IMG/VR virus record: IMGVR_UViG_3300025168_000026
Span: 1-31,226 of that record
Length of the DNA: 31,226 nt
Reading direction: 5' to 3' (one strand)
Origin: a virus
Position numbers and translations under genes: made by a program. The notes beneath the pieces are model-generated. The model did no database searches, was not told the DNA's origin, and worked only from the letters and a program-made list of their open reading frames with translations. Numbering within the stretch: the first letter of the stretch is position 1; the number at the start of each line of letters is the position of its first letter. Shown here piece by piece: positions 5,840 to 31,226 of the stretch.

Positions 5840-6575
5840 TTGAATTTATTTTTAATTTGTTTTGCTTCTAGTTCTGATTTTTCTTTCATAAATTCTAAAG
5901 CATATAAACATTTATGTACATTTAATTTAGTGATATCTTCAATTCGTCTAACATCGCTTTGAGCGAGTGCAGCGAAGATGCTTTGATACCATCCATACTT
6001 TCTTGAAAAATTTGTTGTTCCATCAAGTTGTCCATTTGATTGTCCTCCAAATAACCCATCATAACTTTCGACAAGTCTATTCCTAAATTGTACAAAAAAA
6101 AAACTGCACCAAATACTACATCCATTGGAATTTCCTGCAGCAAATCTTTAGATTCAACATCATAATCTTTTATAAGGTATTTATCACCTATCTTTTCTTT
6201 GATAGGTCTAAACAATACGTTCATTGCTATTTGCATATTCTGCCAATCACCCATATAAGTATCCAAATCTACATATTCACCTAATGAAATTTCGTCAAGG
6301 TTAGGAATTAATCCATATTCAACCCCACCTAATTTAAAGGTTTTTATCAGTTGAGGTTTTTCTTCAAACATCTTATTGATAATTTGAACAACCCTGTCAG
6401 CATCAGTTAGTTTTAAAAGTCTAACACTTTTGGCATCTAGGTTACAAAATATTTCTATCATTTTACATTGCAGGAAATATGAATCTTCATTGCTTTCTTG
6501 TATTTTTAGAAACTTCTTATATTGCTTCAATGATATCTCTGATAAACTGCTTGGTATTGTTAATTCAAATTTCAT
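5836..6575 (-). CDS. Tail assembly chaperone, -1 frameshifted long form (gpGT-like, 246 aa)
   Basis: Translation starts at ATG 6575 and slips back one base on a run of ten T (6094-6103; the zero frame reads GTT TTT TTT TTG, containing T TTT TTT). It then continues about 85 codons in the -1 frame to a TGA at 5836-5838. The shifted frame is open throughout and encodes a convincing helical protein (for example KYGWYQSIFAALAQ, then ITKLNVHKCLYALEFMKEK). Its TGA overlaps the ATG of the next gene, as expected of a translated frame. In lambda and many siphophages G and GT are made this way and chaperone the tape measure. The slip is inferred; an indel in the T run could give the same picture. Confidence 0.75.
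5922..6575 (-). CDS. Tail assembly chaperone, unshifted form (gpG-like, 217 aa)
   Basis: This is the zero-frame product from ATG 6575, five bases downstream of the CGTTATA late promoter motif. Residues 1-158 are shared with the long form and include TFKLGGVEYGLIPNLDEISL and YVDLDTYMGDWQNM. After the T10 run it has its own 57-residue tail (YNLGIDLSKVMMGYLEDN onward) ending at TAA 5922. It is the first gene of the tail operon and lies right after a strong terminator. The frameshift signature and position ahead of the tail genes support the chaperone role. The region 5922-6093 is read in two frames. Confidence 0.75.
   Translation of the reverse strand: MKFELTIPSSLSEISLKQYKKFLKIQESNEDSYFLQCKMIEIFCNLDAKSVRLLKLTDADRVVQIINKMFEEKPQLIKTFKLGGVEYGLIPNLDEISLGEYVDLDTYMGDWQNMQIAMNVLFRPIKEKIGDKYLIKDYDVESKDLLQEIPMDVVFGAVFFLYNLGIDLSKVMMGYLEDNQMDNLMEQQIFQESMDGIKASSLHSLKAMLDELKISLN
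6094..6104 (-). other. Slippery homopolymer for -1 frameshift
   Basis: On the minus strand the sequence is G followed by ten T and then G. In the zero frame it reads GTT TTT TTT TTG, a perfect X XXY YYZ heptamer (T TTT TTT). Slippage here joins the two open frames of the tail chaperone at about residue 160. No strong downstream pseudoknot was obvious by eye. Confidence 0.7.
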
Positions 6576-6580
6576 AATAG

Positions 6581-6606
6581 TATAACGTAATTAATTTAGT
6601 TTTTTA
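6581..6606 (-). promoter_or_regulatory. Candidate late promoter (CGTTATA motif), tail operon
   Basis: CGTTATA lies at 6581-6587, five bases before the ATG of the tail chaperone and just downstream of a strong terminator. An A-rich tract (TAAAAAA on the minus strand) sits 13-19 bases upstream of the CGT. The same arrangement precedes three other late units. A transcript starting at the usual distance would begin at or near the ATG. Confidence 0.6.
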
Positions 6607-6949: not shown

Positions 6950-7204
6950 TTAATAAGCACCTCCCGAAATTCTTGGGCTTGAATTTATTTTACCCTCTAT
7001 CCAACTACTTAAAGTTATTTCAGTAGTAACTTCGTCAATATAAATTATCTGACTTTTAGGAATCCAAATCATACCATTATTAACACAATTAAGTTGTATT
7101 GCTTTATCAGTTACTCTGTATATTTTGCCTCTAGAACCTATTAATGGAATATCATATTTAGAACCTTCTATTAATGATTGAATTTTCTCGTTTAATTTTT
7201 TCAT
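6950..7204 (-). CDS. Hypothetical protein (84 aa)
   Basis: It starts MKKLNEKIQSLIEG and ends SSPRISGGAY. The N-terminus is helical, followed by beta-type sequence (GKIYRVTDKAIQLNCV, IWIPKSQIIYIDEV). The pattern 'K.Y.VT.KAIQL....GMIWIPKSQI' suggests a small beta-barrel fold, but I cannot name the family. It is the first gene after the bacterial-type promoter at 7231-7260 and carries the AAAACAGAACAG element directly before its ATG, so it is probably expressed early. Confidence 0.65.
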   Translation of the reverse strand: MKKLNEKIQSLIEGSKYDIPLIGSRGKIYRVTDKAIQLNCVNNGMIWIPKSQIIYIDEVTTEITLSSWIEGKINSSPRISGGAY

Positions 7205-7230: not shown

Positions 7231-7272
7231 CAAATATATAACTATTTATTTAATAAACAATAAATTTAATAA
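7231..7272 (-). promoter_or_regulatory. Bacteroidetes-type promoter (TTG-N19-TATATTTG)
   Basis: On the minus strand TTG (7258-7260) is followed after exactly 19 bases by TATATTTG (7231-7238), matching the flavobacterial consensus TTG-N17-23-TAnnTTTG. The 20 bases at 7253-7272 are identical to those at 14231-14250 ahead of the other early promoter. It serves the gene starting at 7204 and is probably read by the host sigma factor. Confidence 0.75.
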
Positions 7273-8807: not shown

Positions 8808-8877
8808 GCGGTGGTAGTGTAAAAGCAACACATCTAGTTTCCAACTAGAAGATGGCGTTCATATCGACCTCACCGCT
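8808..8877 (+). tRNA. tRNA-Gly(UCC)-like gene, plus strand
   Basis: The plus strand folds as a tRNA. The acceptor is GCGGTGG / TCACCGC (7 bp, one G-U); the D stem is GTGT / ACAC with a short loop; the anticodon stem is TCTAG / CTAGA around TTTCCAA, giving anticodon UCC. The T loop is TTCATAT. Bacterial glycine identity elements are all present: G1-C72, C2-G71, G3-C70, C35, C36 and U73. Odd points: the D loop lacks the usual GG, the T stem is imperfect (GGCG / CG-A-CC with a bulge), and CCA is not encoded. It is followed by a plus-strand terminator. It is either a functional but divergent tRNA or a decaying one; the minus strand folds less well. Confidence 0.65.
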
Positions 8878-8885
8878 CTAATTAT

Positions 8886-8916
8886 TAACCCTTCTTTATT
8901 GGAGGGTTATTTTTTT
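8886..8916 (+). terminator. Plus-strand rho-independent terminator after the tRNA
   Basis: TAACCCTTC / TTTATT / GGAGGGTTA forms a 9-bp stem (one G-U) followed by seven T on the plus strand. It begins nine bases after the tRNA 3' end. The 3' half overlaps the last codons of the minus-strand Mom-like gene, whose stop codon is inside the stem. On the minus strand no U run follows, so it works in one direction only. Confidence 0.75.
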
Positions 8917-10223: not shown

Positions 10224-10250
10224 TATAACGTAATAAAACCTAAATCTTTT
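10224..10250 (-). promoter_or_regulatory. Candidate late promoter (CGTTATA motif), ParB-Mom-terminase unit
   Basis: CGTTATA lies at 10224-10230, with AAAAG 16-20 bases upstream of the CGT. It is less regular than the other four sites: 15 bases separate it from the ATG and the A tract is displaced. A second TTACGTTAT at about 10190 lies inside the 52-aa gene. The genes downstream (Mom, terminase) are of the kind expected to be late. Confidence 0.45.
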
Positions 10251-13923: not shown

Positions 13924-14172
13924 TTAAACTGTTTCTATTTCTACTTCTTCTAATTCAAAAATTCCGTTATCTCCACTGAATACAATAGTGGTTGTTCCGT
14001 CATTCCATTTGTCTAGTCTAACACTTCCACCCTCCCACATTTCTAAATCTGTGAAAATATCGTTATGTTTTTCCTCTAGCCAACAGAATAGTCTGTCCTC
14101 AATGTTTTCTTGTTTTAAGTTAATGCTTACTAGGTTTCCCCCCCTGTTTTGCATTTGAAATAATGTAGTCAT
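13924..14172 (-). CDS. Hypothetical early protein (82 aa)
   Basis: First gene after the promoter at 14209-14238 and preceded directly by AAAAACAGAACAA. The protein is acidic, with NIEDRLFCWLEEKHNDIF followed by beta strands (GTTTIVFSG, IFELEEVEIETV). No family is recognised. Leading an early operon, it could be a host-takeover protein, but that is only inference. Confidence 0.6.
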   Translation of the reverse strand: MTTLFQMQNRGGNLVSINLKQENIEDRLFCWLEEKHNDIFTDLEMWEGGSVRLDKWNDGTTTIVFSGDNGIFELEEVEIETV

Positions 14173-14208: not shown

Positions 14209-14250
14209 CAAATATAAAACAAATTATCTTATAAACAATAAATTTAATAA
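14209..14250 (-). promoter_or_regulatory. Bacteroidetes-type promoter (TTG-N19-TATATTTG)
   Basis: TTG (14236-14238) and TATATTTG (14209-14216) are separated by 19 bases on the minus strand, exactly as at 7231-7260. The upstream 20 bases (14231-14250) are identical to 7253-7272, including TTATTAAATTT. It drives the run of early genes from 14172 downward. Confidence 0.75.
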
Positions 14251-15013: not shown

Positions 15014-15354
15014 AATAAATCTTTTAATGGTAATAAAATTCCTTTGCTTGTATTATTATCACCTCCTTTTTTATCTCTATTTGTTTCAATAAATTTTCTG
15101 CACCTTTTTTTTAAATCTTCTGTTTTTATTAAATGAAAAGTATCATTAAAACAAAAACAATAATAATCTGCTTGTGTTGTGCTTATACCACTTTTTTTAT
15201 TTCTAGATTCATACTCTACATAAACGTTCCCTGTTTTTAATGCTTGTAAATCATATTTGACTTCAATAGTTTTAGAATTAAAAATTTCAGCTAATTGTTT
15301 TTCTTTAACTTGACCAACTTTTAAATCATATTTAAAATCATTATTAAAATTCAT
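15010..15354 (-). CDS. Putative PD-(D/E)XK-type endonuclease (114 aa)
   Basis: Residues 30-61 carry IEVKYD, TGNVYVEYESR and KKSGISTTQADYY. The 'EVK.D......TGN..VE.E.R.K.SGI..T.ADY' pattern recurs in small phage and bacterial proteins with a restriction-endonuclease-like fold. The rest is short helices. A Holliday-junction or branch-cutting role would suit its place beside replication genes. It overlaps the sigma factor stop (ATGA), so it is made from the same message. The catalytic assignment is tentative. Confidence 0.55.
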   Translation of the reverse strand: MNFNNDFKYDLKVGQVKEKQLAEIFNSKTIEVKYDLQALKTGNVYVEYESRNKKSGISTTQADYYCFCFNDTFHLIKTEDLKKRCRKFIETNRDKKGGDNNTSKGILLPLKDLL

Positions 15355-15830
15355 AATAGTTTTTTTAATTTGTCCTTTACTTTTCTGTAGGTGTTATAAA
15401 GCGAATAATATTCAATGTAGGAATTTCTAGAAAAATCAGCAATGCTTTCCCCTTCGTTTATTATTTCAAACACTTTTCTATCATACCAAAACATATTCTT
15501 TAATTCATCTTTTACAATACCATATGCTTCATCATAATCAACATCAAAATCATATTGAGATAAATTTGTATCTTCAATGTTTATAATTTTAATATTCTTT
15601 CCTTTTCTTTTTAAATCAATGTATAAAGTTTTTAGGACTTTAAAGATGTAGTAATAGTTTATTTCATCTTCATACATTATGTCTAAGCCATTTTCTAACT
15701 TCAATAGTATTTTTATATACATTTCTTGTACAATGTCTTCTGCTATTGTTTTACTGCATCCAAAAGACAAAACTATGTTAATCCAAGTTTTATGCTTCTT
15801 TGCCAACAATATCATTTTCTTTTGTACCAT
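15351..15830 (-). CDS. Phage-encoded ECF-like RNA polymerase sigma factor
   Basis: A 159-aa protein with the two-domain plan of an ECF sigma. Region 2 is at about 10-78: LAKKHKTWINIVLSFG, AEDIVQEMYIKIL (30-42), then YYYIFKVLKTLYIDLKRKGK (59-78), the part that binds the -10 element. An acidic linker follows. Region 4 is at about 112-159: MFWYDRKVFEIINEGESIAD, a helix-turn-helix-like segment, and a basic end. It would redirect host RNA polymerase to phage promoters. The CGTTATA sites before the late operons are the obvious candidate targets, since ECF -10 elements often contain CGT. The link is inference. Confidence 0.72.
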   Translation of the reverse strand: MVQKKMILLAKKHKTWINIVLSFGCSKTIAEDIVQEMYIKILLKLENGLDIMYEDEINYYYIFKVLKTLYIDLKRKGKNIKIINIEDTNLSQYDFDVDYDEAYGIVKDELKNMFWYDRKVFEIINEGESIADFSRNSYIEYYSLYNTYRKVKDKLKKLL

Positions 15831-15834
15831 TTTA

Positions 15835-16680
15835 CTATTTTAATGGGTCATATAAATCCCCAACTATTTGAGGTAATCCAAATTCATTAACTTCAAAGCT
15901 AAATGTTTCAAAAGCATAACCTCTGCTTCTACCACATTTAACAGTTACCCAATCTTTGTTTACTGTATTGGCTTCTAATTGTATTACTGTCTCAGCTTTC
16001 TTTTCTAAGAATGAACCAAGATGCCCTGTGCCTAGTTTTAAACTACCAAAGTTTTGATGTATAACGTTAATAATGTGACATTTGTATTTTGCTGACCATT
16101 CCATTAATTTTTGAACCACCTGATTGCTTTCTGAGATGTTATTTGCATCTGAGCATAAATCAGCAATTCCATCAATAATAACTAAAGAAGGTGTTTTAAT
16201 TTTTTCCCTTAAATAGTAATCTATAAATTCAATTCTCATTTTATAATCGATTGACCTTAAACCAAAGGTATGATAAATTTCTGAATCTATATTTGAATCC
16301 ATTTTATGAACCCTTTCAAAGACCTTTTGGCAATGCCACAATCCTTGTTCTGTGTCAATATGTACTAACTGACCATCATTACCCTTATGTCCTTTAATAT
16401 CACCCCCAAATTGATTTGAACCACTAAGATAGCAGGAAGCTAATAATGATATAAAAAATGTTTTCTTTGTTTTTGGTGGTGCAGTAACTACAGATAGATT
16501 TCCATAAGTTCCTATTGGTATTGGAACAATCAAATCACCTTCAATTTTATTTGATTTTACAACTTTCTCACCAAAGGATAATGCCACAGGTGGATATGCT
16601 ATTTTTTCTTTTGAATCTACAAAGCAGTCTTGTTCTATAAACTGCATCAACATATTGTGTTCGTTCTGTTTTTCTGTCAT
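15835..16680 (-). CDS. RecA-like ATPase of the RepA/AAA_25 type (replication or recombination)
   Basis: I place the start at ATG 16680 (MTEKQNEHNM). The upstream ATG at 16707 lies inside a terminator hairpin and would add nine unlikely residues. The 281-aa protein has Walker A APPKTKKT (67-74), an acidic strand VHIDTEQG (106-113) and Walker B LVIIDG (166-171), then INVIHQNFGS, which fits a RecA-fold sensor. This resembles RepA-type hexameric helicases and related phage ATPases. With no DnaB-like helicase in the genome, it may load or be the replicative helicase, next to SSB. The nonstandard Walker A (T-K-K-T) is typical of this subgroup. Confidence 0.75.
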   Translation of the reverse strand: MTEKQNEHNMLMQFIEQDCFVDSKEKIAYPPVALSFGEKVVKSNKIEGDLIVPIPIGTYGNLSVVTAPPKTKKTFFISLLASCYLSGSNQFGGDIKGHKGNDGQLVHIDTEQGLWHCQKVFERVHKMDSNIDSEIYHTFGLRSIDYKMRIEFIDYYLREKIKTPSLVIIDGIADLCSDANNISESNQVVQKLMEWSAKYKCHIINVIHQNFGSLKLGTGHLGSFLEKKAETVIQLEANTVNKDWVTVKCGRSRGYAFETFSFEVNEFGLPQIVGDLYDPLK

Positions 16681-16693
16681 TTGATAAATATAT

Positions 16694-16730
16694 AAAAAAA
16701 AAGGCATAGATAATAAAACCTACACCTTTT
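16694..16730 (-). terminator. Rho-independent terminator or attenuator between SSB and ATPase genes
   Basis: The minus-strand RNA pairs AAAAGGUGUAG with CUAUGCCUUUU (11 bp, two G-U pairs) around a 10-base loop and continues into a U run. It lies inside the apparent operon, 14 bases before the ATPase start, and no promoter box is visible after it. Partial termination lowering expression of the ATPase and sigma genes is possible. Confidence 0.75.
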
Positions 16731-22495: not shown

Positions 22496-24568
22496 TTATC
22501 TTCTTTTATTAGTTGGTAAAAATCCCTCGTCAGGCATATCAATTGGTCGCTTTGCAACTAATGGACTATTTTTTTCAGGTTTAAATCCTTGCTTTATTGC
22601 TTTGTTTACACTTATAGTTGGAGCAAGTGGACTTTTAATATCTATGCTTCCTTTTCCTTTCTTCATATAGGTCTTTCTCATCCAAAAATGGTGGCACGCA
22701 CCTCCTCCTTTGTAAAACCAAATGGAATAAGTATCTGCACCACGTGGTCCCCATCCTGCATTTACTGCTTGTTTACCCATCATTTCAATATCTTCTTTTC
22801 GATATATCTTTTTAGCTTTTACCATTTTAGAACAAAAATCTCTAGTAACATTTTCTCCTTCTTCATTAAAGGTATCTTTTAAAGGTGCATATTGATAACG
22901 AACTTTAAACTGTGTTCCATCTACATCTTCATCTTGTTCAGACTTAGCATTCGGTCTTGCTGTGCCTGTACTTACAAATTCCCATAACTTTGATAGTAAA
23001 CTTTTACCCTTTGTATTTAATTGGTCTATCTGATAATCTAGTGCTTCTTCTGCTTCATAATCAACTTTCCTTTCATCAATTAATTCCCATTCAGTTAAAT
23101 CTTCATCTTCACCAAATGATTCTAAACTTATTTCTTCTAGCTTAACACAATTAGGAACTTTCTTACCATCTTTGGTTTTCATACCCCTTTGCTCGTATCC
23201 ATCCCAACAAGGTGCTTTAAGTTCTTCGTGACTTATACAAGGCATAAAATAAACAACCCCTTCAACTTCGTGTTCGTGTGAACCTCCACAGCCCATTTCT
23301 TCAGCTACCTTTTCTGCTTCTTCTTTAGTTTCAAATGCTTCTTTTCCATCTATCATTTTAAGATTAAATTTCTGCATTTCAACACCTGTTTCTTCTTCAA
23401 TAGTTTCTTTGTCTTGAATTTCACTATCTACCTCAGTAAATTCTAAAGGCTGTAAGGTCGTAAAGTATAGGTTTAAGCTAATATTATTGTAAGATAGTAT
23501 ATTATCAAAAGAATCTATTAAAAGTTCCTGAAATGGTCTTATAACAGTATTGTCCATTAATAAGGAAGCAGTTTTTATTTCATCAGCATTGCTCGAAAAA
23601 CCTGAACTTGTTCTAATACCTAGTAAAAAAGGTGATACAACCCTATGTGCAACCTGTATCTTAGACTCTGCCTCATCTGATAAAAATTGATATTGGTTAT
23701 GTGCATCGCTTAGCTGAACAGGTGTTATTTCTGCTTGGCTTTCTTTATTGTCATTAAATGCTAAAATGAATTTCCCTGCGTTAGATGTCCCTGAAAATTT
23801 CTGTGCTATCTTAGTTTCTATTAATTGTCGTTCATTTTGGTTAGGTGTACCATTGTTAAAATTGATTAACATACTAGGTGCTAGACCATTAAGTATATTA
23901 TTCAAGTGATAGTTTGAAACTTCTTCTTCCAATTCTGCATATTGCAATCCACCTTGGTAATCTACAGGTGAATAGTAGTAAAAGCCTGATTTATAAGGTT
24001 TTATGTAATATATTTCTATATTTTCATTTGACATTCCAAAAGCAGGAATCCTTAATGGAACATCTGATTTTTTTATGTTTGCCCAATCTTTATAATAATA
24101 ATAAGCAGGTATTTCCCCATCATCATCACACTTTTCTGCCCTTAAAGTTTCAATAGGCATATGCTCAATCTGTGCAATAGTCTTTCTATCCTTAGAATAA
24201 ATAACTTGCATAGCACATTGACCCATTAATTTTAAGTCATAACACAATTTCCTTACTACATCTTTTTTAAACAAAGAAACCATTTGGGCATATTCATTTG
24301 GCTTTCTATTTGAATTGGTAGCATTTAAACCCCTACCATAAATAGCCTGACTAATTCCATTGATAGCAGCATTATTTGTTGGAGAACCATTATATCTGTC
24401 AATAAGATATTGAAAGTAGTTATTGTCTGCACCATATTCAATCCAATCTGCTCCATTTACTTCCTTAACTTCAGGACTTGTGTATGTACTTAAATTGACA
24501 AATCCAAATTCAGAAACCTTTGAATCTTTCTTGAATTGCCCATTACTATTTCTCATTTGTTTTTTCAT
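22496..24568 (-). CDS. Portal protein with C-terminal Cys/His modules, including a MuF-like region (690 aa)
   Basis: Residues 1-380 form the portal core: IEYGADNNYFQYLIDRYNGS (43-62), GISQAIYGRGL, a helix with KLCYDLKLMGQCAMQVIYS, then AHRVVSPFLLGIRTSSGFS (307-325). Three further modules follow. One is at 408-446, with GCGGSHEHEV and FMPCISH. The next is at 454-474, CWDGY to VPNC. The last is at 555-632, RDFCSKMVKAKKIYRKEDIE and GWGPRGADTYSIWFYKGGGA followed by CHHFW, which resembles the C-terminus of MuF-type head morphogenesis proteins. It forms the dodecameric DNA gate at one capsid vertex. The extra modules may act inside the head. It starts in ATGA overlap with the 118-aa gene. Confidence 0.82.
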   Translation of the reverse strand: MKKQMRNSNGQFKKDSKVSEFGFVNLSTYTSPEVKEVNGADWIEYGADNNYFQYLIDRYNGSPTNNAAINGISQAIYGRGLNATNSNRKPNEYAQMVSLFKKDVVRKLCYDLKLMGQCAMQVIYSKDRKTIAQIEHMPIETLRAEKCDDDGEIPAYYYYKDWANIKKSDVPLRIPAFGMSNENIEIYYIKPYKSGFYYYSPVDYQGGLQYAELEEEVSNYHLNNILNGLAPSMLINFNNGTPNQNERQLIETKIAQKFSGTSNAGKFILAFNDNKESQAEITPVQLSDAHNQYQFLSDEAESKIQVAHRVVSPFLLGIRTSSGFSSNADEIKTASLLMDNTVIRPFQELLIDSFDNILSYNNISLNLYFTTLQPLEFTEVDSEIQDKETIEEETGVEMQKFNLKMIDGKEAFETKEEAEKVAEEMGCGGSHEHEVEGVVYFMPCISHEELKAPCWDGYEQRGMKTKDGKKVPNCVKLEEISLESFGEDEDLTEWELIDERKVDYEAEEALDYQIDQLNTKGKSLLSKLWEFVSTGTARPNAKSEQDEDVDGTQFKVRYQYAPLKDTFNEEGENVTRDFCSKMVKAKKIYRKEDIEMMGKQAVNAGWGPRGADTYSIWFYKGGGACHHFWMRKTYMKKGKGSIDIKSPLAPTISVNKAIKQGFKPEKNSPLVAKRPIDMPDEGFLPTNKRR

Positions 24569-24921
24569 CTTACTGTGTATGTATTATCAAATCCATTGTA
24601 GGTAGTAAATTTACCTTCGTTTAAATCGTAATAATCATTGTTTGATTGGTCTATAGTTTGGTCTGTACAAAAAATTCTATCTCTATAAATTGTTTCACCT
24701 CCAACAATAAGCCTTAAATCATAAAAATGATTCTCTACTAATATTGGGTCAAATATATTATTAAAATTTAAGTAATTACCTGATGTTACTGCATTAGTAA
24801 TACTATAAGTTTTTACCACATTAGTGCTATCATCCCTAATTGATAACGTAAAAGTAGATACATAACTTCTAGGTATAATTGAAAGTGATTGTGCAGTTGC
24901 CGATGTTGTTAGTATAATCAT
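24565..24921 (-). CDS. Hypothetical virion-region protein (118 aa)
   Basis: First gene of the portal unit, six bases downstream of CGTTATA. It is beta-rich: MIILTTSATAQSLSIIPRSY, FTLSIRDDSTNVVKTYSI, FYDLRLIVGGETIYRDRIFC, and an Asp/Asn/Tyr-rich end. It may be a small tail or head-joining protein. I do not recognise the family. The stop overlaps the portal start (ATGA). Confidence 0.6.
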   Translation of the reverse strand: MIILTTSATAQSLSIIPRSYVSTFTLSIRDDSTNVVKTYSITNAVTSGNYLNFNNIFDPILVENHFYDLRLIVGGETIYRDRIFCTDQTIDQSNNDYYDLNEGKFTTYNGFDNTYTVR

Positions 24922-24927
24922 TATTTA

Positions 24928-24953
24928 TATAACGAAAAAAAACACCTAATTTG
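24928..24953 (-). promoter_or_regulatory. Candidate late promoter (CGTTATA motif), portal-lysis unit
   Basis: CGTTATATAAATAATG on the minus strand places the motif (24928-24934) six bases from the ATG at 24921. C followed by AAA lies 19 bases upstream of the CGT, as at 27748 and 30364. It stands directly after the terminator at 24969-24998, so a new transcript must start here. Confidence 0.62.
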
Positions 24954-27049: not shown

Positions 27050-27739
27050 TTATTGTTTGTTTAATTTGTTTAATACTCTGTCTAGTGTTGAAGTGAATTT
27101 TCCTTTTCCAAATTCAACTTTTTTAATTGTTTTACTTTCCCCTTCAGGATTGTGTTTTATTGGCTTAGAAGCAGGTTCTGATAATTCAGTTTTAACTTCT
27201 TGATTAACTTCTTCAGAAACTTTTTCAGAAAATTCTTCTTTTATGGTTCTTGATTTAGGCTGTCTAGATGCTTGTTCTTCCATTTCAACTTCATCTTCTT
27301 TTTCCATTTTACCTTCCTTGTCAGATTTTAAATCAGCAATCGCATCCTCAAGGTTTTGGATTTTATCTTCCATTTCTCTAAAAGTATCTTTAGTGACATA
27401 GTTTTCTTCATCCATCATTTTTTCTTCCTTTTCTTTTTTTTCTAAATCTTCAGTAATTTCTTTACCTTCTTCTGTTTCCTTTGCAGGAACTTCATCTGAT
27501 ACTTCTCTAATGTCTCCAATTGTACCTTCTTCTTCTACAACTACTAACCTACCATCTTCTAGTAAGTATTCGCCTACAGGCATTGCTACCTTCTCATCGT
27601 CAGTTACGATAAAAATTTCTTTTCCTTTTTCAAATGAGTCTGCACTTACTACAGTTCCATTTTCTAACTTCATTTCTTCAAGTTTTACCTCGATGTTTAG
27701 AAGCGTTTTAATTTGATTTAACATTTCAGTTGATTTCAT
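27050..27739 (-). CDS. Putative scaffolding protein (229 aa)
   Basis: A highly charged, Glu/Lys-rich protein. Residues 1-75 form a small beta domain (ENGTVVSADSFEKGKEIFIV, MPVGEYLLEDGRLVVVEEEG). From about 85 a long acidic helix begins (KKEKEEKMMDEENYVTKDTF, DKIQNLEDAIADLKSDKEGK), and the C-terminus is basic (GKGKFTSTLDRVLNKL). Such coiled, acidic proteins encoded just before the major capsid are usually assembly scaffolds. It starts eight bases after a CGTTATA motif and heads the capsid unit. Confidence 0.65.
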   Translation of the reverse strand: MKSTEMLNQIKTLLNIEVKLEEMKLENGTVVSADSFEKGKEIFIVTDDEKVAMPVGEYLLEDGRLVVVEEEGTIGDIREVSDEVPAKETEEGKEITEDLEKKEKEEKMMDEENYVTKDTFREMEDKIQNLEDAIADLKSDKEGKMEKEDEVEMEEQASRQPKSRTIKEEFSEKVSEEVNQEVKTELSEPASKPIKHNPEGESKTIKKVEFGKGKFTSTLDRVLNKLNKQ

Positions 27740-27747
27740 ATTATTTA

Positions 27748-27773
27748 TATAACGATTATTAATTTACTTTTTG
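27748..27773 (-). promoter_or_regulatory. Candidate late promoter (CGTTATA motif), capsid unit
   Basis: CGTTATATAAATAAT lies directly before the ATG at 27739, with CAAAAA beginning 19 bases upstream of the CGT. The 13 bases from CGT onward match the site at 24928 exactly. Confidence 0.62.
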
Positions 27774-28003: not shown

Positions 28004-28990
28004 TTAAGCTATTCCTCCATCAACTATTGACCAACCAAAATTACTTACTAGTGATGCCCTTGCCGTTGCTGCTGCTCCTCCTCCAGTGTATTCCGAATTA
28101 CCAAAGTTTATTGAGATATTCGGTGTATATCCACTACCATTCGGAAATGCTGCTTGTAGTGTTGCCTCCCAACCAATTAAAATAGCATCGTAATTTGATG
28201 TTGAAAAAGTTACACCCGCAGCAAAATTTACAAAAGTTGTAACGCTTGTAATATTCCAATTACTTATGTTTTGGTCAAAAGATGTTGCACCAAAAAACAT
28301 AGCACTCATATTAGTTACACTACTCATATTCCAACTACCAATTGGTTGATTAAAAGAAACTGCTCTATTAAACATAGAATTTATTTTAGTCACATTGCTA
28401 GTATCCCAAGAACTTATATCTCGATTAAAAGCAGATGCTCTAAAAAACATATCAGCCATATTTGTAACACTACTAACATTCCAAGAACTTATATCTCCAT
28501 TGAATGACGATGCATCTCGGAACATATAACTCATATTAGTAGCATTTGTAAGATTTGGAGCATCTGTAAACGAACCAGTTAAATTAGTAGCACCTCTAAA
28601 AGACCTTTCAAAACTTGTCCAAACAATATTACCCCATTGTTTAATATCAATTAGTTTTGTTTTATCACCTCCATTATTAAAAAAAAATCTAGGAAAAATA
28701 CCACTTATAGAAACATCATAATCACCAGCAGTAGCAAAGGTTATTGTTTTGCCTCCACTTATATTATTAAAAGTTCGTCCATCTGAAGTAGTTATACTGT
28801 AATTGTATGTGGATGTCGCAATTATTGGTATTGTGATTGTTTCGTTAGATGTTGTTGTTCTCCAAGTAGTTATAAAAGATGTAGTATCTCCACTTGAAAA
28901 AACTTCTGAACTTCCTAAATAGGCTTTTGATATTTCATTACTTCCTAAGTATAATTTTGATATACTAGCACTTCCTAATTTTATAGCCAT
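28004..28990 (-). CDS. BspA-type leucine-rich repeat (DUF285-like) virion adhesin (328 aa)
   Basis: The N-terminus has a short duplicated motif ([28 protein letters not shown]). A possible beta domain follows (residues 30-115), then four 25-residue repeats at about 150-250 of the form F[ND]xxISxWxxSxVTxMxxMF, for example [20 protein letters not shown]. These match BspA/DUF285 repeats, best known from bacterial surface adhesins that bind host or matrix proteins. In a phage this is probably a receptor-binding or virion-surface protein. It lies between the protease and scaffold genes, not with the tail genes. The repeats may vary in number by recombination. Confidence 0.8.
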
Positions 28991-28991
28991 A

Positions 28992-29540
28992 TTATCCGAC
29001 TATTAAATAAAATGTTGTTGCTACTGGACTTCCAGCATCATACTCTGCTTGTGTTAAACTAACAACATTGTAAACTAAATCGCTTCCTGTTGGTTCAGAT
29101 GTAGTAGTTGAGTTAATAGTATTAACTTCTGCACCAGCCTCAATGCCTCCTAGCTTTGTACTTGAAGCACTATCAAAAGAAATTTTAGCAGTATTTGCTA
29201 CAACAGATGTGTTAGCAGATACTAAAGATTCTGTATAACCAACCTTTGCGTTGTTCGTTGTGATGTCGCTAGATTGTGTTGGTGTGATTCCAACCTTTGC
29301 ATTGTTAGCAGTAATTTCGCTCGCTTGTGTTGGTGTTATACCTACCTTTGCTGTGTTAGCAGTAATGGCTGTAGATTGATTTGATGTTATTCCAACCTTT
29401 GCAGTATTTAAATCTATCTCAGATTGTTTTGCTATTAAATCATCTGCAATTGATACAAGGTTTCCTCCAACTCTAGCAGCAGTATTTGCACCAGTTGTTG
29501 TTTCATCCCTTATAATTATTGATTCGCTTCTTATACTCAT
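28992..29540 (-). CDS. Repeat-containing fibre-like protein (182 aa)
   Basis: Residues about 45-110 contain a 17-residue repeat, [17 protein letters not shown], three full copies and two degenerate ones (51 bp at DNA level). This is a pattern of trimeric fibre shafts. The N-terminus ([20 protein letters not shown]) looks like a virion-attachment segment. The C-terminus has [15 protein letters not shown] and [20 protein letters not shown] followed by TFYLIVG, a small terminal domain. It sits two bases before the BspA-like gene; the two may form one fibre. Confidence 0.68.
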
Positions 29541-29546
29541 AGTCTA

Positions 29547-29756
29547 TTAATTAAATGTATCGCCAAATGTAATTCCAAAAACACCTGAAACAGTTGTTAT
29601 TCTTGTTATAACCCCTATGCCCTGGGCCTGCATAGAACCATCACAGCATTCGATAGAATACTTATTTGTGTCCCAACATAAACAAGCCCTAGAACCCCCT
29701 GTTGGACTTGTTCTAGATGGTATAAAAGTTTTTTTATTACTTGTATTTCTGCCCAT
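29547..29756 (-). CDS. Small Cys-rich protein (69 aa)
   Basis: It starts MGRNTSNKKTFIPSRTSPTG in TAATG overlap with the protease stop. The core ACLCWDTNKYSIECCDGSMQ, followed by AQGIGVITRI, has four cysteines (CLC...ECC) that could form a metal or disulphide knot. The ending GVFGITFGDTFN is beta-like. By recollection, similar tiny proteins occur beside fibre genes of flavobacterial phages. Role unknown. Confidence 0.6.
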   Translation of the reverse strand: MGRNTSNKKTFIPSRTSPTGGSRACLCWDTNKYSIECCDGSMQAQGIGVITRITTVSGVFGITFGDTFN

Positions 29757-30358
29757 TAATTAGAAGTTAAAATTTCTTTTATTTTTAATAACGTCTTTTT
29801 ATCAATTTCACTTGACATATCTTCTTTAACTGCTTCTTTAGGAGATTCCATTTTATCTGCAAAATAACCCTCAATAGAAAAACCCTTAACTTTATTTGTC
29901 TTAACATATTCATTCCAAATTTCTTCATTGTTAACTTTTACTGCACCCATCCAAGTCCCAACTGGTACATTTAATCCATACTTTCTTGACTTGTCTTGTA
30001 CCTCAGATTCTACTATCCAAGATTCAACTAAGGTCAAACCTTTTAAATTTTCATTGTGTTCTAAAGTTGAGTTATTCTGATAGCCATTTCTTAAATACAT
30101 CTGTGATGCTTTTGAAATAGTATCTTTTGAAAAGAAAATGTAATATTCACCTTCAGAACCTTTTCTATAAATTGGTTTGTTTGGAATTAATAAAGCACCT
30201 AATAAGATTCTTTTTTCTTTGTCTATTTCTGCTAACTTTATTTCTTCAGTTTTTAAAGCAACAAAGTCTGATTCGATGGCAGGTGCTGCTACAATTGATA
30301 TCGCTTCAATTCCACTTTCTTCTTGTTCTTCGTCTAATATTAATTCAACTATCCTCAT
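29756..30358 (-). CDS. Prohead protease, XkdF-like (S78-type)
   Basis: A 200-aa protein with an acidic N-terminus (MRIVELILDEEQEESGIEAI, then SIVAAPAIESDFVAL). The protease core is ILLGALLIPNKPIYRK (51-66), YYIFFSKDTISKASQMYLRN (72-91), STLEHN with H101, and LVESWIVES with S113; His and Ser are placed as in S78-type prohead proteases. WMGAVKVNNEEIWNEY and VKGFSIEGYFADK follow. It would cleave scaffold and capsid before packaging. It starts five bases after CGTTATA and leads its unit. Confidence 0.85.
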   Translation of the reverse strand: MRIVELILDEEQEESGIEAISIVAAPAIESDFVALKTEEIKLAEIDKEKRILLGALLIPNKPIYRKGSEGEYYIFFSKDTISKASQMYLRNGYQNNSTLEHNENLKGLTLVESWIVESEVQDKSRKYGLNVPVGTWMGAVKVNNEEIWNEYVKTNKVKGFSIEGYFADKMESPKEAVKEDMSSEIDKKTLLKIKEILTSN

Positions 30359-30363
30359 AATAA

Positions 30364-30389
30364 TATAACGTATTTAATTTTTAATTTTG
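30364..30389 (-). promoter_or_regulatory. Candidate late promoter (CGTTATA motif), protease unit
   Basis: CGTTATA (30364-30370) is five bases from the ATG at 30358, and CAAAA begins 19 bases upstream of the CGT. It lies between the tape-measure-like stop and the protease start, with no terminator hairpin visible in that gap. Confidence 0.62.
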
Positions 30390-30404: not shown

Positions 30405-31226
30405 TTAACCCCCAATAGATGCTTCATCAATAATATTTCTATCTAATTCCTGTGATGTGGTTACTTCACTTGAAACAACAAATGCTTGAACAGGCTGTTG
30501 AGATTGACCACCTATTGCATCTGCTAATTGATTTGTTCCACTTGCTCCGACTACATTAAATGCAGGGGGAATACTACCTGCTGATACTGAAGGTGCTTGA
30601 ATATCTTTGCTAGATTGTGAAACCCCTAATTGAGATGTAGCTGCTTTAGATGCCCTCATTGCACCCCTTATTGCAGAAATAATACCTACTGCTTGTGCTG
30701 CATATCCTAAAATTAAAGGTATGTTTGCAGGAAAAGGTGCTGCTGATGCTGCTTTTGCTGCACCTGCTGAAACATCAACCCCTGCTTCTGATGCTTTGAT
30801 AACTGTTTTAGTAGCTGATTGCTTTGCTGAAAATAAAGTTCCTTTCATTTCCATTATCATTTCCTTAGCTTGTAATAATTGCTTGGCTATGAAAATTGCT
30901 TTTCCTAATTTAGATTCAGCACCTGCTATTGTAATTGCATCTTGAAATGCTTTTTCTCGTCTTTTCTTTTTAGCAGCTTCAATTTCAACATCTCTATTTT
31001 CGTTAGTTTGCCTAGATTGTTCTGTAAATTCGTCTAATATTATCTGTGCATCTATTTTAGCCTGTGTTCCTGCATTTGCATTATCAACGATAGCTTGTAA
31101 CCTTATAGATTCTTGTTCTGCTTCTAGAACATCAATTTCTTGCAATGCTTCTAATCTAGCTGACTCGTCTTCTATCTGTTCAGCATTAAATCTTTTTTGC
31201 TCTATTGAAAGCAATGATTCACTTTC
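30405..31226 (-). CDS. Tape-measure-like tail protein, C-terminal part (joins 1-1246 across the contig ends)
   Basis: This frame has no stop or true start at the window end; it is the continuation of 1-1246. The last 127 bases repeat the window start, so only 30405-31099 is new sequence. It encodes a coiled-coil stretch (ESARLEALQEIDVLEAEQES), a basic stretch (AKKKRREKAFQDAI), Ala-rich helices, and a hydrophobic span FPANIPLILGYAAQAVGIIS near the end, then a Ser/Gln-rich tail. A TTG at 31214 is in frame but is an internal Leu codon. The hydrophobic C-terminal span fits tape measures. Confidence 0.75.
   Translation of the reverse strand, partial: ESESLLSIEQKRFNAEQIEDESARLEALQEIDVLEAEQESIRLQAIVDNANAGTQAKIDAQIILDEFTEQSRQTNENRDVEIEAAKKKRREKAFQDAITIAGAESKLGKAIFIAKQLLQAKEMIMEMKGTLFSAKQSATKTVIKASEAGVDVSAGAAKAASAAPFPANIPLILGYAAQAVGIISAIRGAMRASKAATSQLGVSQSSKDIQAPSVSAGSIPPAFNVVGASGTNQLADAIGGQSQQPVQAFVVSSEVTTSQELDRNIIDEASIGG
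31100..31226. repeat. Terminal direct repeat, right copy
   Basis: Identical to 1-127. Merging the two copies keeps the tape-measure-like frame open, so the contig is circular with 31,099 unique bases. Confidence 0.95.

Follow-up and report, generated by a model that had tools for sequence, protein, structure and literature searches.

A phage-encoded ECF-type sigma factor as the likely reader of CGTTATA late promoters in uncultured, mostly marine phages

Introduction

Cellular ECF sigma factors recognize promoters with an A-rich −35 element, like the late promoter described here, and they usually answer to anti-sigma factors. Among phages, gp36 of phiEco32 and gp47 of 7-11 are likewise encoded by the phage and are used with the host core polymerase at late promoters, with transcription starting 6–9 bp from the promoter element (PMC8948821). 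The phiEco32 promoters consist of a single element, tAATGTAtA, whereas the type described here also has a conserved −35 element, and the 7-11 promoter, GTAAtg-16-aCTA, differs from it as well (PMC8948821). Both phages have enterobacterial hosts, and no sequence match between their sigma factors and that of the present phage was seen. In Flavobacterium psychrophilum, CGT has been assigned as the −10 core of ECF sigma factors, and only 5.5% of the mRNAs are leaderless (PMC9723704). Little has been described of late control in Bacteroidetes phages, and a literature search that covered few subscription journals and preprints found no previous account of an ECF sigma factor for their late genes.

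In this study, a stretch of viral DNA of 31,226 nucleotides (IMG/VR record IMGVR_UViG_3300025168_000026), referred to as the window, was analyzed together with related contigs. The original prediction had proposed that a 159-amino-acid protein encoded in the early unit is an ECF-like sigma factor and the likely reader of CGTTATA late promoters. This proposal is supported, since the fold of the protein, the co-occurrence of gene and motif, the placement of the sites before late modules and the evidence from distant cultured phages all agree. It is likely that this sigma factor, presumably made early, drives the near-leaderless transcription of the late genes. The mechanism would be of the phage late sigma factor type, and the window protein joins the known ECF-type phage sigma factors.

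Genome organization

The window carries an exact terminal direct repeat of 127 bp (1–127 and 31100–31226) and is therefore probably a complete genome of ∼31.1 kb that is circular or terminally redundant. The minus strand carries virtually all plausible genes. The replication module extends from ∼18020 down to ∼10366 and contains, judging by their appearance, genes for SSB, a helicase, an exonuclease-like protein, a methyltransferase and a DnaA-like protein, as well as the sigma factor; the rest of the window holds virion, packaging and lysis genes. Gene names other than that of the sigma factor were assigned from sequence and synteny rather than by family search. The host is presumably a member of the Bacteroidetes, as suggested by kinship to the P12024 phages and by promoters of the type TAnnTTTG. 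The two genes of immediate concern are as follows.

15351–15830, minus strand: phage ECF-type sigma factor of 159 amino acids, assigned by fold and family (region 2, residues ∼1–81; linker, ∼82–97; region 4, ∼98–159)
15835–16707, minus strand: AAA/RepA-like helicase gene, directly upstream of the sigma gene and its conserved neighbour in the early module

The predicted coordinates of the sigma gene proved to be exact; its reading frame is on the minus strand, and over this interval stops abound on the plus strand. The gene lies directly behind the RepA-like helicase gene within the replication module and is presumably expressed early.

Sequence and fold of the sigma factor

Both peptides that had been quoted from the protein, AEDIVQEMYIKIL and YYYIFKVLKTLYIDLKRKGK, are present. 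The window protein alone matches Pfam Sigma70_r2 with E = 0.023, under the cut-off, and region 4 was not detected by sequence. However, the family, of which IMG/VR contains at least several hundred members, matches Sigma70_r2 in 26 of 33 diverse members (best E = 4.4e-6), with the relative L078 and gp33 of phage P12024S lying above the curated cut-off. A PHROG sigma family also matches relatives. A tblastn search of INPHARED with the window protein gave no match at E < 1, and relatives were reached via L078; an A1 profile search of GTDB contigs found no relative. One further relative lies in a contig of 89,305 bases (L422), about three times as long as the others, which also holds a capsid relative and may represent a larger phage, an integrated copy or an assembly join.

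An AlphaFold (AF2) model was built from an alignment of 33 sequences (pLDDT 86, pTM 0.47). It contains helices at residues 2–11, 13–22, 27–46 and 59–77 in region 2 and at 99–112, 115–125, 130–137 and 141–158 in region 4, with a low-confidence linker between these two sets; the pTM value means that the arrangement of the domains is uncertain. The top Foldseek matches of the model are the ECF sigma factors AlgU, SigE, SigL, SigH and Escherichia coli sigmaE (E from 2e-4 to 9e-4), and VIA Z reaches up to 10.5. Over the full length the r.m.s.d. is large, as the two domains of the lone model have a different arrangement. Taken separately, modelled region 4 fits E. coli sigmaE on −35 DNA with 1.5 Å over 63 amino acids (Z 9.0), and modelled region 2 fits E. 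coli sigmaE on −10 DNA with 2.6 Å over 75 amino acids (Z 8.5). The best structural matches are thus ECF sigma factors in both halves, as expected from the original assignment of regions 2 and 4.

The protein consists of regions 2 and 4 joined by a short linker, without regions 1 or 3, which is the composition of ECF (group IV) sigma factors. It is a minimal sigma70-family factor of the ECF type, and as such would bind core polymerase. The cellular ECF sigma factors (E. coli sigmaE, AlgU and Mycobacterium tuberculosis SigH, SigL and SigE) share the two-domain architecture, the fold and the CGT-type −10 element with the phage system. No anti-sigma gene was recognized beside the sigma gene in the window.

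A putative bipartite late promoter

CGTTATA occurs six times in the window, always on the coding strand, against an expectation of 1.5, and four of the copies are followed by a start codon after 5–8 nt, where 200 shuffles gave an expectation of 0.18. These four sites and a fifth, probable one are listed below.

30364–30389, minus strand: late promoter; −35 CAAAAT (30389–30384), −10 CGTTATA (30370–30364), ATG 5 nt downstream; head gene 29756–30358
27748–27773, minus strand: late promoter; −35 CAAAAA, −10 CGTTATA, ATG 8 nt downstream; head/scaffold-like gene 27050–27739, upstream of the capsid gene
24928–24953, minus strand: late promoter; −35 CAAATT, −10 CGTTATA, ATG 6 nt downstream; portal-adjacent gene 24565–24921; located downstream of the terminator 24998–24975
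6581–6606, minus strand: late promoter; −35 TAAAAA, −10 CGTTATA, ATG 5 nt downstream; tail gene 5922–6575; located downstream of the terminator 6654–6627
10224–10230, minus strand: probable late promoter; weak −35, ATG 15 nt downstream; start of the ParB/terminase unit

At the junction corresponding to 10224, the sites of relatives are strong. The remaining copy, at 16060, is inside the helicase reading frame and not at a gene start, and was rejected as a coding match, as were sites inside a conserved gene (VIEMKFRN).

Alignment of 59 non-redundant sites gave the consensus (A/G)CAAAA-N14-CGTTATA, with CAAA starting at −19 or −20 in 38 of them, an A/T-rich stretch immediately 5′ of CGTTATA and mostly TAAAA in place of CAAAA before tail genes. 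The original prediction had recognized the −10 element near the ATG, and the CGT core ascribed to it has a counterpart in the ECF assignment in F. psychrophilum (PMC9723704), but it had missed the conserved −35 box CAAAA ∼14 nt upstream. Across related contigs, 469 of 794 occurrences of CGTTATA stand 2–10 nt before an ATG, compared with 8–21% for the one-base variants tested. An A-rich −35 and a CGT-containing −10 at promoter spacing are what an ECF sigma factor would be expected to use, and in the putative regulon they probably belong to the window sigma factor.

CGTTATA stands where a ribosome-binding site would be, and it could on that account be a translation or operon-boundary element. 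However, the distance between the boxes is constant while that to the ATG varies (3–9 nt at almost every site), which favours a promoter over a ribosome-binding site. Many sites also follow intrinsic terminators (GGGTGCTTTTTTT and similar), the internal genes of the operons in the window are without CGTTATA, and the version in the P12024 phages shares the architecture; a translational role is hardly credible. As a promoter, the element would place initiation at or almost at the ATG if the start lies 6–9 nt from the −10, as for the late sigma factors of phiEco32 and 7-11.

It may further be asked whether the sigma factor recognizes the whole promoter alone or needs other phage factors. Several phage late sigma factors work with partners, and T4 gp55 needs gp33 and gp45. 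In phiEco32, gp79 stimulates gp36 (PMC8948821), and the low pTM of the window model would also suit a partnered protein. A dependence of this kind is nevertheless very unlikely, because both DNA-reading domains and both promoter boxes are present, as expected of a self-sufficient two-domain sigma factor, and the −35 is conserved, unlike in the single-element phiEco32 promoters.

Scans for E. coli-type sigma70 promoters showed no excess over shuffles. Host-type promoters of another form are present in the window at two positions.

14209–14240, minus strand: host-type promoter TTG-N19-TATATTTG before the early gene 13924–14172
7231–7262, minus strand: host-type promoter TTG-N19-TATATTTG before the small gene 6950–7204

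A leader ending in AAACAGAACA just before the ATG is common to the early-type minus-strand genes starting at 7204, 13710, 14172, 17751 and 18020. It often lies under a host-type promoter and is possibly a translation or regulatory element.

Putative regulon and co-occurrence

The sigma-bearing contigs contain 115 CGTTATA-type sites, only two or three of which are not before a late gene. The junctions are TerL/tail (27), MCP/portal-adjacent gene (23), tail/head (23), head/scaffold (20) and DnaA/ParB (6), with a few sites at contig edges. Host-type promoters (TTG-N17-21-TAnnTTTG; 49 sites in the same contigs) are found mostly at early junctions and behind TerL, marking the start of the early module, the units downstream of the sigma gene and a small gene after TerL. 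The sigma gene itself is in the replication module and its putative target sites are before the late units, as in other phage late sigma systems. This placement of promoters outlines a putative early-to-late switch.

The sigma gene is present in 35 of the 45 long contigs examined. Co-occurrence across related phages was a check that the original prediction had suggested: none of the 34 family contigs that keep the neighbouring helicase is without the sigma gene, and the helicase is found in 34 of the 35 sigma-bearing contigs. Eight family contigs without the sigma gene also lack the helicase and are therefore probably truncated. Among 27 contigs that had been collected by their capsid or tail gene, and not by the sigma gene, a sigma match is clear in 20. 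When IMG/VR was scanned blindly with the window-type promoter pattern, 31 stretches were returned, and those in contigs longer than 20 kb all come with the sigma gene, except for two very large contigs. Seven Bacteroidetes phages outside the family have one site in total, and three of the seven are much richer in GC than the window. Linkage through shared ancestry accounts for part of this co-occurrence. Furthermore, the L078 clade, L403 and other distant lineages mostly retain CGTTATA with small variants (CGTTACTA, CGTTACA), and a test by co-variation is weak because the promoter changes so little between sigma lineages.

These distributions bear on whether a host ECF sigma factor might read the CGTTATA promoters, with the phage protein competing for core polymerase or serving other promoters. 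Flavobacteria have several ECF sigma factors, and a CGT-type −10 motif, SM6, is known from F. psychrophilum (PMC9723704). However, the promoter is fixed across the phages that keep the sigma gene and occurs only once in the seven non-family phages. Nor was a further conserved promoter without an assigned reader noticed that the phage protein could serve; the remaining one seen is of the host sigmaA type, and virion genes relying on stress-induced host sigma factors would presumably be a fragile arrangement. Recognition by a host factor is accordingly improbable, and the phage sigma factor is the preferred reader.

Conservation in the P12024 phages

Among named proteins, the nearest relative of the window protein is gp33 of P12024S, a cultured Nonlabens phage; its annotation says no more than that it contains Sigma-70 region 2. 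Comparison of the two families by hhalign gave a probability of 97.9% (E 3e-13). The proteins of the Nonlabens (Persicivirga) phages, P12024S gp33 and P12024L gp35 (phrog_31712), are homologous to the window protein, likewise have 159 amino acids and are likewise encoded in the early module; identity is ∼28%, as measured to the relative L078. Both are listed as hypothetical, and the record has no promoter annotation.

The P12024 promoter before late genes, CAAA-N14-CGTTAATA, is of the same style as that of the window, but its −10 is CGTTAATA and its spacer is one base shorter. The sites in P12024S and P12024L read AAAACAAA-N14-CGTTAATA-N4-ATG or a close variant and precede portal-adjacent, tail and other late genes as well as a small gene upstream of TerL. 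Five IMG/VR relatives of P12024 carry the same pattern; a scan for it gave repeated matches only in P12024-type contigs, as judged by contig names, and scattered single matches.

Proposed mechanism and implications

In the proposed mechanism, the sigma factor is probably expressed with the early replication unit, from host-type promoters, and would bind the host core RNA polymerase. Region 4 would contact the −35 box (A/G)CAAAA and region 2 the −10 box CGTTATA, so that transcription of the packaging, tail, head and portal units may begin at the start codon or only a few nucleotides from it.

The group consists of many uncultured, mostly marine phages, probably with Bacteroidetes hosts. The wider picture, in which a widespread marine lineage has a private two-domain ECF sigma factor, starts its late mRNAs at or near the start codon and ties late control to leaderless translation, a mode uncommon in flavobacteria, is somewhat favoured. 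For a group of phages in which late control has been poorly described, the analysis supplies a defined factor and a defined bipartite promoter, together with a predicted regulon, all recurring in numerous marine phage genomes. Cultured P12024S, with its gp33, allows a direct test of the circuit. In addition, the promoter is usable as a marker of late units in uncultured phages, and the sigma factor–promoter pair could serve as an orthogonal expression tool in Bacteroidetes.

Other features of the genome

A tRNA-like element lies on the plus strand at 8808–8877 (Rfam tRNA, 43 bits; ARAGORN makes no call), followed by a plus-strand terminator-like hairpin at 8886–8909, and the two are apparently the sole plus-strand unit of this minus-strand genome. 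The portal gene (22496–24568, minus strand) has a C-terminal part, from about residue 400, that is variable among relatives and aligns as separate pieces, and an in-frame TAG lies within the aligned portal stretch in two contigs (G016 and G027). Tandem repeats are present inside structural genes of the window at 28249–28507 (75 nt) and 29238–29408 (51 nt).
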